From positions 1-51,951 of the forward strand of contig JAABQB010000019.1 of NCBI GenBank assembly GCA_011391695.1: 51,951 bases of DNA, in the 5' to 3' direction. The DNA is from Desulfobacteraceae bacterium. GTDB taxonomy: Bacteria > Desulfobacterota > Desulfobacteria > Desulfobacterales > RPRI01. The notes under the pieces were generated by a model. That model was not told the origin of the DNA, ran no database searches, and saw only the letters and a program-made list of their open reading frames with translations. This document shows positions 1,418-18,624 of the stretch, in pieces. How positions within the stretch are numbered: position 1 is the first letter of the stretch; every line of letters starts with the position of its first letter. Position numbers and translations under genes: made by a program.

Positions 1418-1725
1418 ATGCCTCTCCCTACGTATTCATTGCATTATTGTCATGGAAATAAATTTACACCGGATTCAAAAATAAAGCTTATGGATCAGGT
1501 ATGACAGGTTCTGAGATAAACGATTTTCCTCTTTTCAGTAACACAAGAGGTTGAAAATATATTTAATACTTATCACATTCCTTAATATTAATAAAGTATG
1601 ACTAATTTTATCTATATTTTCAGCAGATTATTCTCATTCGGTTTGATTCATCTCAAAATATCGCTGGAAATGTAAGCTGCATTGCTTCAGATTCGGTGGA
1701 CACCTGCTTTCCCTTCGCCACCCGT
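1418..1725. other. Gene-free A+T-rich interval
   Basis: About 300 bp between the ParE-type module and rlpA. I see no convincing gene, terminator hairpin or repeat. It must hold the promoter of the antitoxin-toxin pair at its left end, but no clear -35/-10 pair stands out. Confidence 0.5.
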
Positions 1726-14868: not shown

Positions 14869-15453
14869 CCGTTTTTGCAATCAATTTATGTTAACAGCTT
14901 GACAGTAAGCTCTGTGCCGATACCCAGGCACAATGATATTATGCAATATATCAGGAGTGTTTAATCTCGGGATATTCCGGAAATCTCATATTGAATATTA
15001 ATCGCCAGGCACTTTCTGCGCGAACATTTTGTATCAGCCTTCCCAATTATTTTATCGATCACTTGCTCGTTGGAACCTGCGATCTTTTCAATCCTATCTC
15101 TTTATAATTAATTGACAAATCAGACCTGATATGATTATTTGACCTCGCATTTCGACAGTCCCATCAAAAGATCAACGCGTAATTTGGCGCTTTATATAAA
15201 TACTGTTTAGCTTTATGTTTTCCACTGAATTATGTGTATGAAGTCTTTCAATCCAAGGTATGACTGAGTTTTTTGGATTGTTGGAAATAAATTCCGATAG
15301 TTATTCTCGATTTCCATGATAACAGCCGATATGGCCAAAACATGGAAAATTCAATCATATTTTTTCCATGTTTTATTGCCAATACGGCAATATATGGAAA
15401 TTTTTTCCATCGTATATAAGCAATACATGGAAAATATTCCACTTATTAACACT
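14869..15453. other. Long intergenic interval before the cassette array
   Basis: About 585 bp with no credible gene. The left two thirds are featureless A+T-rich sequence. The right end holds four closely spaced palindromes (separate entry). An integrase gene would be expected here if this were a complete integron; none is visible on either strand. Confidence 0.6.
15337..15441. repeat. Cluster of four palindromes built on ATGGAAA/TTTCCAT
   Basis: Perfect 13-bp arms AAAACATGGAAAA/TTTTCCATGTTTT span 15337-15374. ATTGCC-N5-GGCAAT follows at 15375-15391, then ATGGAAA-N3-TTTCCAT at 15394-15410, then TGGAA-N4-TTCCA at 15428-15441. The cluster ends 13 bp before the first cassette boundary. Function unknown. 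Confidence 0.75.
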
Positions 15454-15483
15454 GTTGGCAGGCTTAATAAGGATGATATCTTA

Positions 15484-16026
15484 ATGATCAGACGCACTAC
15501 AGATTCTGATCGCGCTGCAATCAGAGATATTCACATGAGCGCTTTTGGAAAGGCGCAAGGCCAAGAAATCGTAGAGCTTGTCAATGGTTTGCTTGGTGAT
15601 GAAACGGCAAAGCCTTTACTCTCGTTAGTGGCAGAAATAAATGAAAAGATCATTGGCCATATCCTCTTCACGCGGGCCATACTTCAACCCGGGGATCAAG
15701 ATGTTTCGGTGCGGATTCTTGCTCCGCTGGCAGTCTCAAGAGAACTTCAAGGCAAAGGTATCGGGGGATCATTGATCATGGAGGGACTGAAGCAGCTTGC
15801 AGAGTCGGGGGTGGATTTGGTCTTCGTGCTTGGCCATCCCAGCTACTATCCGATGTATGGGTTTCGGCCGGCAGGAGCATTCGGCTTTGAGGCTCCCTTT
15901 CCAATTCCATCCGCGCAAGCAGACGCCTGGATGGTTCAGGAACTGAAGCCAGGCCTGATTGGTAATATCCAGGGAACGATTCGGTGTGCCGAGGTCTTAG
16001 ATGAACCCCAACATTGGCGAGAGTAA
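15484..16026 (+). CDS. GNAT-family N-acetyltransferase (cassette gene 1)
   Basis: A 180-residue protein of the YhbS-like GNAT group. The N-terminal MIRRTTDSDRAAIRDIHMSAF leads to the acetyl-CoA-binding motif A (LAPLAVSRELQGKGIGGSLI) and motif B (VFVLGHPSYYPMYGFRPA). It should acetylate a small molecule or protein amine; the substrate is unknown. I chose the ATG at 15484 because the upstream open frame crosses the cassette boundary at 15454. The gene is 30 bp inside a cassette whose 5' end (15454-15465) is the exact 12-bp reverse complement of the sequence starting at the gene's stop codon (16026-16037), as in circularised integron cassettes. Confidence 0.88.
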   Translation: MIRRTTDSDRAAIRDIHMSAFGKAQGQEIVELVNGLLGDETAKPLLSLVAEINEKIIGHILFTRAILQPGDQDVSVRILAPLAVSRELQGKGIGGSLIMEGLKQLAESGVDLVFVLGHPSYYPMYGFRPAGAFGFEAPFPIPSAQADAWMVQELKPGLIGNIQGTIRCAEVLDEPQHWRE

Positions 16027-16178
16027 AGCCTGCCAACAAGGCGCTCCAGCCGACGCGGCATAACCGTGCGGCTGAGCTTGGTCGATAAGTGAGACCGTTC
16101 GCTGGCGCTCACTTGGCCTTCGGCCATCTCACTTATCGTCGGCTGTTGAGTTACACTCGAACAGCCGACGTTATTTGG
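16026..16178 (+). other. Integron attC recombination site (long, three stem-loops)
   Basis: It begins with AAGCCTGCCAAC, which pairs with the cassette 5' end at 15454-15465. It then has the typical attC inner arms CAGCCGACGC and GCGGCTGAG. A second perfect 12-bp stem follows (CGATAAGTGAGA at 16082 and its complement near 16139), then a third, GTCGGCTGTT/AACAGCCGAC. It ends in CGTTATTTGG, where the G/TT crossover (16170/16171) joins the next cassette. At about 145 bp it is within the known range for long attC sites. The terminal R' box is not a perfect GTTRRRY. Confidence 0.72.
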
Positions 16179-16195
16179 ATAGGAAATGATTTGAT

Positions 16196-16579
16196 ATGAG
16201 AGATTTTTGCATAGAACAGAATGATACACCAGTTAGTTTGGCTTATATTGGTGAAATTTTAGGTGACGCTGGAGTGAATATTGAAGGGCTTTGTTTTACA
16301 ACCTGTGACAGACTGCATATCATTCATTTCGTTGTAGAAGATGCTGTGACTGCTCGATCCGTTCTTAAAAAATCGGGGATCATGATCAAGGATGAGTCGG
16401 AAGTGTTTGTTTTGCATAAGGATGAAAAACGTGTCACAGGCAAACCGGGTTCCTTTGGTGGGATCTGTAGAACCCTTGCAGATCATGACATCAAAATCAA
16501 ATTCGGGTATCCAGCCGAGAACAATCGGTTTGTTTTTGGCGTTGATAATTTGGCGAAGGCTTATAACTTGCTGGAATAA
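16196..16579 (+). CDS. Tandem ACT-domain-like protein (cassette gene 2)
   Basis: A 127-residue protein with two consecutive ACT-like units. The first (DTPVSLAYIGEILGDAGVNIEGL, ending in the VVEDAVTARSVLKKSGI helix) and the second (KPGSFGGICRTLADHDIKIKFGYP, ending DNLAKAYNLL) each show the beta-alpha-beta pattern and the GxxxxIxxxLxxxxIxI signature of ACT domains. Such stand-alone proteins bind amino acids or similar small ligands; no ligand can be named. The start ATG has GGAAA upstream. The gene occupies the second cassette and is followed directly by an attC site. Confidence 0.75.
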   Translation: MRDFCIEQNDTPVSLAYIGEILGDAGVNIEGLCFTTCDRLHIIHFVVEDAVTARSVLKKSGIMIKDESEVFVLHKDEKRVTGKPGSFGGICRTLADHDIKIKFGYPAENNRFVFGVDNLAKAYNLLE

Positions 16580-16613
16580 AGACTTAAATAATGAACCATT
16601 AGATTGCAACATT

Positions 16614-16679
16614 TCCACATAACCAGGCTAATTCAGCCGACGCAAGAAGCCGCGCGGCTGATCAGCATCGTTGTGCATC
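16614..16679 (+). other. Integron attC recombination site (short, canonical)
   Basis: TCCACATAAC at 16614-16623 is complementary (9 of 10) to the start of its own cassette (GTTATTTGGA at 16170). The inner arms TTCAGCCGACGC and GCGCGGCTGA flank a short loop (AAGAAGCC), with one extra unpaired base as usual in attC. The site ends in CGTTGTGC, with the G/TT crossover at 16670/16671. About 60 bp, the classic 59-base-element size. Confidence 0.85.
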
Positions 16680-16705
16680 AAGTAACTTCGACTAAAGGGT
16701 GTTGA

Positions 16706-17296
16706 ATGAAAAAAATCCTGCTTTTGCTTGCTAAAGGTTTTGAGACATATGAGGCAAGCGTTTTTATAGATGTCATCGGTTGGAATTCTACGGATGGCGA
16801 CAAATCAACAAAATTATTTTCCTGCGGCCTTACCAAAGAGGTTACTTCGACCTTTGGCCAAAAAGTTTTAGTCGATTACTTGCATTCTGAAATAGATGTG
16901 AATGAATTTGACGCATTGGCAATCCCTGGTGGTTTTGAAGAATTTGGATTTTATGAAGACGCTTTTAGCGATTCATTTTTGAAAATCATACGTGACTTCA
17001 ACTCTTTAAATAAAACAATTGCATCTATCTGTGTTGCGGCGATACCATTAGGGAAAAGCGGTATCTTAAGAGGCAAAAAGGCTACTACTTACAATAGTAA
17101 GGTTCGAAGAAGCGCCTTAAAAGAATTTGGCGCCGAAATCATTGATCAACCCGTAGTTATGGATACCAATATTATCACAAGTTGGAACCCAGCAAGTGCT
17201 ATTGAAGTTGCTTTTTTGCTTTTGGAGCAGCTTACACACAAAGAAAATTCTGATTATATAAGAAGTATCATGGGCTTTACACAAATTGAAAAATGA
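16706..17296 (+). CDS. DJ-1/PfpI-family protein (cassette gene 3)
   Basis: A 196-residue class-I glutamine amidotransferase-like protein. The opening KKILLLLAKGFETYEASVFIDVIGW carries the conserved Glu (GFE) of DJ-1, and the nucleophile elbow is ASICVAAIPLGKSGIL with Cys near residue 109. AIPGGFEEFGFYED is the usual strand before it. The C-terminal part (VVMDTNIITSWNPASAIEVAFLLLEQL) is also typical (DJ-1 D-x-x-x-x-T-S-x-G-P-x-x-A). Family roles include glyoxalase III/deglycase, chaperone and redox sensing; which applies is unknown. The start ATG has AAAGGGTG upstream and lies 35 bp inside the third cassette. Confidence 0.88.
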   Translation: MKKILLLLAKGFETYEASVFIDVIGWNSTDGDKSTKLFSCGLTKEVTSTFGQKVLVDYLHSEIDVNEFDALAIPGGFEEFGFYEDAFSDSFLKIIRDFNSLNKTIASICVAAIPLGKSGILRGKKATTYNSKVRRSALKEFGAEIIDQPVVMDTNIITSWNPASAIEVAFLLLEQLTHKENSDYIRSIMGFTQIEK

Positions 17297-17301
17297 AGAA
17301 G

Positions 17302-17360
17302 TGCACAACAACTTTCTTCAGCAGACTCGTTTCCCTCGCCGCTTAGAAATGCGTTCGGAG
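17302..17360 (+). other. Probable degenerate attC site after cassette 3
   Basis: TGCACAAC at 17302-17309 is the exact 8-bp complement of the start of the third cassette (GTTGTGCA at 16670), so this is the expected left end of its attC. TTCAGCAGAC nearby resembles the TTCAGCCGAC arm of the preceding site. The right arm is not recognisable; GTTCGGA at 17353 may be the remaining crossover box. Confidence 0.55.
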
Positions 17361-17388: not shown

Positions 17389-17778
17389 ATGCCCCTTGCT
17401 AAAATAGAAACAAGAAAATCTTGGAGTACATCTCAGAAGAAGGAAATAATGGAAGCCATCCATTCGTCCATGCGAGAGGCGCTCAAGATACCGGAGAATG
17501 ATCGTAATATCAGATTCAACGAGTATCATTCGGAGGATTTTCAAGTTCCCCCTGACAAGACTGAAAACTATATCTTAGTTGAAATAACCATGTTTTCAGG
17601 TCGTTCATTGCAAGCAAAGAAAGCGTTGTATCAAGGGATCGTTGCCAATCTGGGCAAATTGGGAATACTCGCCAGTGATGTTTTCATTGTGCTGTGTGAA
17701 GCTCCGCTGGAGAATTGGGGCATCCGTGGAGGTATTCCCGCTTCAGAAGTGGATTTGGGATTCAAGGTTGGAGTCTAA
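17389..17778 (+). CDS. Tautomerase-family protein
   Basis: A 129-residue protein of the 4-oxalocrotonate tautomerase superfamily, Tautomerase_2-like. Met is followed by Pro (MPLAKIETRKSW), so removal of Met exposes the catalytic Pro-1. SQKKEIMEAIHSSMREALKIPENDR and the second-half repeat SLQAKKALYQGIVANLGKLGI match the two beta-alpha-beta units of a long (non-hexameric) family member; ENWGIRGGIPASE carries the C-terminal conserved segment. GGAGG lies 5 bp before the ATG. It follows the degenerate attC site and could be a fourth cassette gene, but no matching attC follows it. Confidence 0.85.
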   Translation: MPLAKIETRKSWSTSQKKEIMEAIHSSMREALKIPENDRNIRFNEYHSEDFQVPPDKTENYILVEITMFSGRSLQAKKALYQGIVANLGKLGILASDVFIVLCEAPLENWGIRGGIPASEVDLGFKVGV

Positions 17779-18033
17779 AGTCGCCGGGGCTGTCGTCTGG
17801 GGTCGGGCCAAGCTAACTATTTGATTTCTAAAATTTAACGTCCCCAAAACAGGTGTTTTCTGGCCCTGTATCACGCTTTTTGACCCCGAAAAGGGCTCTA
17901 TAAGAAATGTATCGCACCGTCAATTATTTGGGAGAAGTATTCGGGACGTCCATAAATTCATAAACAACTATCAGTTTGACATGTCTTTTTACTTTTATTA
18001 GATATCCCGAACATATTTCCCTGGCTATCACTG

Positions 18034-18418: not shown

Positions 18419-18579
18419 GTTATTCTACAGTTTCCGGACAACTTCACTCCTAACAGGATACCTTCGGGGCTGGACAATGCAGATCTATCCGTTGTCTTTG
18501 CGATTCATGGCTGACCCGCCCGGCAGATATGGCATAACTATTTTAAATAATACATAATATTATGACAACCTTTTTGCAA
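18419..18579 (-). promoter_or_regulatory. Promoter and leader of the UPF0145 gene, related to another leader at 20.8-21.1 kb
   Basis: On the minus strand TTGCAA (18574-18579) and TATGTA (18551-18556) are 17 bp apart. A 20-bp leader element at 18419-18438 (TCCGGAAACTGTAGAATAAC on the minus strand) differs by one base from 20781-20800. The same promoter spacing and flanks recur at 21077-21105. Confidence 0.55.
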
Positions 18580-18624
18580 CCATTTATTTCCATCATAATG
18601 GGATTCCATGAAACTTCCTGCCGT

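Follow-up and report, generated by a model that had tools for sequence, protein, structure and literature searches.

Integrons are described as one attI site beside one integrase gene (intI), and the sedentary chromosomal integrons of the Vibrio and Xanthomonas type have this arrangement. Progressive loss of intI has been described in Xanthomonas, with CALINs at other loci, and the accessible portion of that report makes no mention of attI at these extra loci (PMC12444791). CALINs are attC clusters without an integron integrase (Cury et al., IntegronFinder; PMC9024848). One origin put forward for them is the loss of intI (PMC8618304), and their cassettes can reportedly be mobilised in trans (PMC12444791, PMC9668308). 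Neither CALINs nor the possibility of mobilising them in trans is therefore new. The attI site, according to the available text of PMC9024848, is poorly described outside class 1 integrons and is not searched for there. Fragments of attI have been reported elsewhere than beside intI in the Delta-attI-type gene cassettes of class 1 and class 2 integrons, where they recombine with IntI1 (PMC12901181). Within the accessible text of the open-access literature, no account of attI platforms dispersed over a genome came to light, be they termed multiple, orphan, or duplicated attI.

The present study examined a gene-cassette array in a 51,951-nt stretch of DNA (hereafter the window) from the metagenome-assembled genome of a Desulfobacteraceae bacterium, a genome of the sulfate-reducer type. 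We consider it likely that the locus is a chromosomal integron platform in which intI has been reduced to six codons while attI and a short array have been kept, and on which the integrase encoded on another contig of the same genome (C34) most likely acts in trans. The original prediction, made from the sequence alone, had called the array integrase-less and of the CALIN type, which holds in the IntegronFinder sense, given at least two attC cassettes and no intI nearby, but overlooks that the platform retains a real, full attI and a six-codon intI stub. IntegronFinder searches for attI only in class 1 integrons and would therefore list a platform of this kind as a plain CALIN. With sedentary chromosomal integrons, the locus shares its chromosomal setting and non-resistance cargo, and at C34 an attI adjoins intI; it differs in that one genome holds several platforms of a single attI family, mostly without intI. 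Of the parts of a complete integron, an attI by the first cassette is present in the window, whereas a functional-looking intI by attI is found at C34 and not in the window. The Delta-attI-type cassettes are similar in having attI sequence away from intI, but in those cassettes short attI fragments take the place of the terminal attC within the same array (PMC12901181), unlike the complete attI and intI-promoter (Pint) regions with intI codons that here open arrays at separate places on the chromosome.

Methods

Sites of the attC type were searched for using a covariance model (R1) built solely from class 1 integron cassettes taken from eight plasmids, for which ten attCs were aligned, one of them shortened in its variable loop. 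Genomes, contigs, and loci carry the prefixes G, C, and L, respectively, with the window's genome being G000, and a slash marks the crossover position. All of the genomes are draft metagenome assemblies, and the counts and neighbourhoods given below therefore carry assembly and binning risk.

Results

Structure of the array

The window array is a real integron gene-cassette array that bears an attI and has lost its intI, a structure that is well supported by the features collected in Table 1. The three genes and the junction sequences were confirmed where the original prediction had placed them, although it had missed the attI/Pint region and intI stub directly upstream (15300-15454).

Table 1. 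Features of the cassette array and its platform (positions in the window)
Feature	Position	Strand	Remarks
intI stub	15300-15317	-	Start codon and five codons (M-E-I-E-N-N); intI homology ends here
attI/intI-promoter (Pint) region	15318-15454	+	Crossover after G15454 (...CTTATTAACACTG/TT)
Cassette 1	15455-16084	+	Own 5' end pairs with own R'' at 12/12
GNAT acetyltransferase gene	15487-16026	+	Pfam PF13527, 3.9e-10
attC1	16026-16084	+	R'' AAGCCTGCCAAC, L'' CAGCCGACGC, L' GCGGCTG; R1 match 16032-16090
Gene-less mini cassette	16085-16170	+	G/AT core; GATAAGTGAGA...TCTCACTTATC and attC-like hairpin
Cassette 2	16171-16670	+	G/TT junction at each end; R1 match at attC2
Small protein gene, weak ACT similarity	16196-16579	+	PF01842, 22.6 bits (gathering score 27)
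attC2	16614-16670	+	R1 match 16617-16676, 9.0 bits; single-strand fold z -2.97
Cassette 3	16671-17353	+	Starts at G/TT after attC2; right end uncertain
DJ-1/PfpI family gene	16706-17296	+	PF01965, 1.3e-29
Candidate degenerate attC3	17302-17353	+	TGCACAAC pairs with cassette 5' end at 8/8; no model match, no fold signal
Tautomerase gene, possible remains of a fourth cassette	17389-17778	+	PF14552, 2.8e-23

Searching both strands of the window (104 kb of strand) with R1 and with filters off returned two matches at E<10, which fell on attC1 (14.3 bits, the best of the window) and attC2. Their E-values are weak (0.32 and 6.2), and the weight of the result lies in rank and position, the two top places of 104 kb of strand being taken by two sites predicted beforehand; this agreement with an independent class 1 model upholds the call of an integron cassette array. 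On the C34 integron, the same model recovered three of the sites read by eye along with two weak other matches. The scan against Rfam at the gathering threshold returned tRNA only.

Cassette 1 pairs exceptionally well with its own R''. Anchored on GTT and AAC, GTTGGCAGGCTT (15454-15465) and AAGCCTGCCAAC (16026-16037) are complementary over their whole length, as had been proposed; a score of 12 against an AAC lying 300-1500 nt downstream was reached by 2 of the 901 GTTs in the window, the other one being AT-rich, and about 300 other GTT starts in the window all scored lower. For cassette 2, the proposed pairing of 9/10 has one mismatch and only 5 contiguous positions counted from the core, yet attC2 gains from its R1 match and from the single-stranded fold of its bottom strand, which none of 200 shuffles equalled. 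The bottom strand is the strand used by IntI. The third site is doubtful: the 8/8 pairing of TGCACAAC is at a level attained by 22 of the 901 GTTs, R1 gave no match at attC3, and its fold was no better than those of shuffles (z +0.93 and +1.46). As it neither scores nor folds, we treat it as degenerate or spurious. Single-strand folding thus favoured attC2 and the mini cassette (z -8.1) and failed attC3.

Cassette boundaries coincide with G/TT, as the original prediction required, with the sole exception of the mini cassette at G/AT. The interval 16026-16178, which had been taken for a single site, resolves into an ordinary attC of about 60 nt (16026-16084) and a separate unit of 86 nt (16085-16170) that starts at G/ATAAGTGAGA and holds TCTCACTTATC and an attC-like hairpin. 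This unit recurs in the congener G008, directly at attI on contigs C281, C44, and C205 and further down the array on C176, and appears from these occurrences to behave as a mini cassette with A at the crossover. The G/AT mini cassette (also at L072, L075, and L077) is inserted in G008 exactly after the attI G. Two G048 contigs (L166 and L167) carry a different G/AT unit after attI.

Past cassette 3, inspection by eye revealed no convincing right-hand attC for the tautomerase gene. A homologue of this gene with 60% identity lies in G095, a genome of another family (C25; L197 965-1494), inside a strong attC array (38.2 and 29.2 bits). Three short stretches of the window (15087-15208, 17792-17931, and 18505-18596) have many repeats across the genomes of the genus.

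The attI region, the intI stub, and the integrase on C34

Positions 15301-15453 of the window align at 85% identity with C34:36935-37087, the region beside the full intI, so the window has an attI of its own with six intI codons at the far end. Beyond the stub the sequence is unrelated to intI, and on the other side cassette 1 begins at the attI crossover. The attI region contains direct repeats of the CAATAnATGGAAA type, was aligned with 17 other copies, and scores 125 bits with model R2. Conservation of attI modestly exceeds that of the intI 5' part (pairwise identities of 0.84-0.85 vs 0.71-0.83). A simple promoter scan of the attI region yielded no convincing Pc, with counts at chance expectation; the cassettes may be expressed from this region.

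The original prediction had noted that no integrase lies nearby, which is correct for the window, where no full-length intI occurs, but a genome-wide search located one full-length intI elsewhere in the same genome, on C34. This only full-length copy (TIGR02249, 437.8 bits vs a cut-off of 265) begins MEIKN, and has an intact frame with conserved recombinase motifs present and catalytic motifs intact. After it come attI and an array in which at least five cassettes were recognised by eye. Loci retrieved with the C34 IntI from named genome records belong mainly to metagenome assemblies of Desulfobacteraceae and Desulfobacterales, and the window is accordingly placed in this group. The window attI would presumably be bound by IntI in a functional manner. 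The C34 attI (L008 12087-12095) is without the crossover G at its first cassette (AACACT/TTCG), as is L081; the C34 IntI may accordingly itself be a relic, or its activity there may be reduced.

About five attI copies are present in the window's genome, one of which (C34) adjoins a full-length intI. The further copies include those on C40 (80% identity, without intI) and C42 (79%, with intI cut to N- and C-terminal bits) and a partial copy on C38. In the window, intI is represented only by the six-codon stub at the array and by a second 5' remnant at 1457-1516 (+ strand), which comprises 20 codons with one stop, is 80% identical to the C34 IntI, and, having no adjoining attI, is probably the scar of another lost platform. 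Contig C30 of the same genome holds a cluster (L012 11424-11909) in which two attCs (23.5 and 26 bits) flank a cupin-like gene; no attI was found there, and the cluster is an ordinary CALIN.

Platform copies in the genus and order

Among the loci fetched from eight congeneric genomes, 34 copies of the attI region were counted, of which 2 have a full-length intI and 20 have detectable 5' or 3' remnants of intI of varying length; in one, the contig breaks off on the side of intI, and the rest, like the window, keep too little intI for detection. Most of the intact copies end at G/TT and are followed by a new gene. Shared upstream sequence groups the copies by locus across species, and at one such locus a series of decay runs from a full intI (G008) through an internal deletion (G007) and a remnant (G000, matched through the G007 copy) to attI only (G001 and G003). 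Six intI-less platforms (L070, L072, L074, L076, L087, and L091) have R1 attCs downstream in the right orientation, including the one on C40 of the window's genome (27.2 bits).

Beyond the genus, the attI sequence profile (E<=1e-4) found related attIs in 49 of the 194 Desulfobacterales genomes sampled, a count in which weak matches in AT-rich genomes may include chance matches; several of the 49 hold 4-9 copies. An intI adjoins one attI copy in G048, G103, G094, G020, G175, G112, and G195 (most of those checked), and the fetched copies of G048, G103, G094, G014, G081, G020, and G195 mostly end at the crossover. In a subset of order genomes outside the genus, related attIs were present in 10 of the 19 genomes that encode a full intI and in none of the 11 that lack one. 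Two loci, L092 (G006:C148) and L174 (G094:C104), have an identical attI region in bins of different families, which may reflect horizontal transfer or cross-binning, and the counts for G006 and G094 should be read with caution for this reason.

Cassette turnover and cargo

A sister species, G001, has an orthologous platform on C161, which shares 2.4 kb of upstream flank with the window (about 91% identity in two long blocks and 88% in the last stretch) as well as the same intI breakpoint. Identity between the two ends at +153/154, which is the attI crossover to within a base, and past this point G001 carries a different first-cassette gene, the attC of which looks decayed. No other pair with different cassettes is orthologous beyond doubt. 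As the truncation of intI is common to both, the truncated state is older than the split and the difference in cassettes younger, and the cassettes of the window locus hence changed after the loss of intI. The simplest reading of this change would be an IntI acting in trans from elsewhere, with homologous exchange between attI copies being the main alternative. In a search upstream for an empty site, homology to the window in G002 and G008 stopped near 15034-15042, with the contigs ending soon after. Genome G008 also holds a 438-bp segment at 97% identity on two intI-less platforms (L073 4691-5128 and L074 3391-3828), beginning at the TT after the end of an attC.

None of the GNAT, ACT-like, and DJ-1/PfpI genes has a copy of comparable identity in nine congeners, an outcome that, by the refuting condition stated in the original prediction, favours an integron. 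The ACT-like gene was not matched in any of 115 other genomes at E 1e-15, and the DJ-1/PfpI gene was found elsewhere in only four genomes, all of other families. The original prediction had described the cassette functions as unusual, a claim that is not strong, given that acetyltransferases are common cassette cargo and that the ACT assignment falls below the gathering score.

Alternative explanations

Under the reading that we favour, a chromosomal integron platform has lost intI down to six codons, with attI and the cassettes remaining, namely a GNAT gene, the gene-less mini cassette, an ACT-like gene, a DJ-1/PfpI gene, and perhaps a decayed tautomerase cassette. The C34 IntI would act in trans on folded attC sites and on dispersed attIs, and platforms without an integrase gene of their own would acquire, lose, and exchange cassettes. 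It is unlikely that the locus is instead a dead relic, that is, the fossil of an ordinary integron whose cassettes have been frozen since intI was deleted. The progressive deletion of intI at several loci, the decayed look of attC3 and of the fourth cassette, and the proposal that CALINs are degraded integrons (PMC9024848) would all accord with a relic, but G000 and G001 have a truncated platform in common with different first cassettes and a break at the crossover, one cassette is common to two intI-less platforms of G008, and the 12/12 pairing at cassette 1 together with a near-perfect attI speaks against long decay.

Movement of cassettes could also have come about through homologous recombination over attI copies of 80-90% identity rather than through IntI. 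The many similar copies per genome could recombine, but homology breaks at the crossover base and not at variable points, and the G/TT boundaries and the match of 5' ends to their own R'' are as site-specific integration predicts, which renders this route improbable. We give still less credence to the attI-like sequence being an unrelated dispersed repeat or promoter element that the intI locus merely acquired: the copy number is very high, reaching ten among the fetched loci of one genome, and the G014 copies lie within larger repeats, but the copies include the start codon of intI and extend as far as the cassette crossover, and related attIs track full-length intI outside the genus, as given above. 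Least credible of all is a plain CALIN, formed by insertion of cassettes at a random genomic site (attG) with no attI. Such insertion has been described for integrons in the available text of PMC12444791, and the C30 cluster suggests that the route may operate elsewhere in this genome; the window array, however, starts exactly at the crossover of a 153-bp homologue of the C34 attI with intI codons at the far end, and this attI and the G001 ortholog contradict the attG reading for this locus.

Dispersed platforms and a proposed shared integrase

Returning to the platform served in trans, it is probable that one integrase, encoded elsewhere, serves all of the scattered copies. A wider proposal, which is plausible but which we put forward tentatively, is that of a distributed integron, in which one Desulfobacterales integrase would serve about 5-10 scattered attI platforms, most of them without intI, with their number rising by an active process and cassettes being delivered to many chromosomal addresses. 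No transposase or target duplication was identified behind the multiplication of platforms. If several attI platforms of a genome share one integrase, cassettes would be captured and expressed in many different contexts along the chromosome, and many of the elements now classed as CALINs may in fact be active platforms. The platforms also give a natural comparative system for the loss and regain of the integrase by integrons.

At one locus of G014 (C523; L175), three attI copies in the same orientation lie within 4.4 kb (at 360, 1941, and 4698), inside larger repeats. R1 found no attC match at this locus, and two of the three copies are followed by toxin-antitoxin-like gene pairs.
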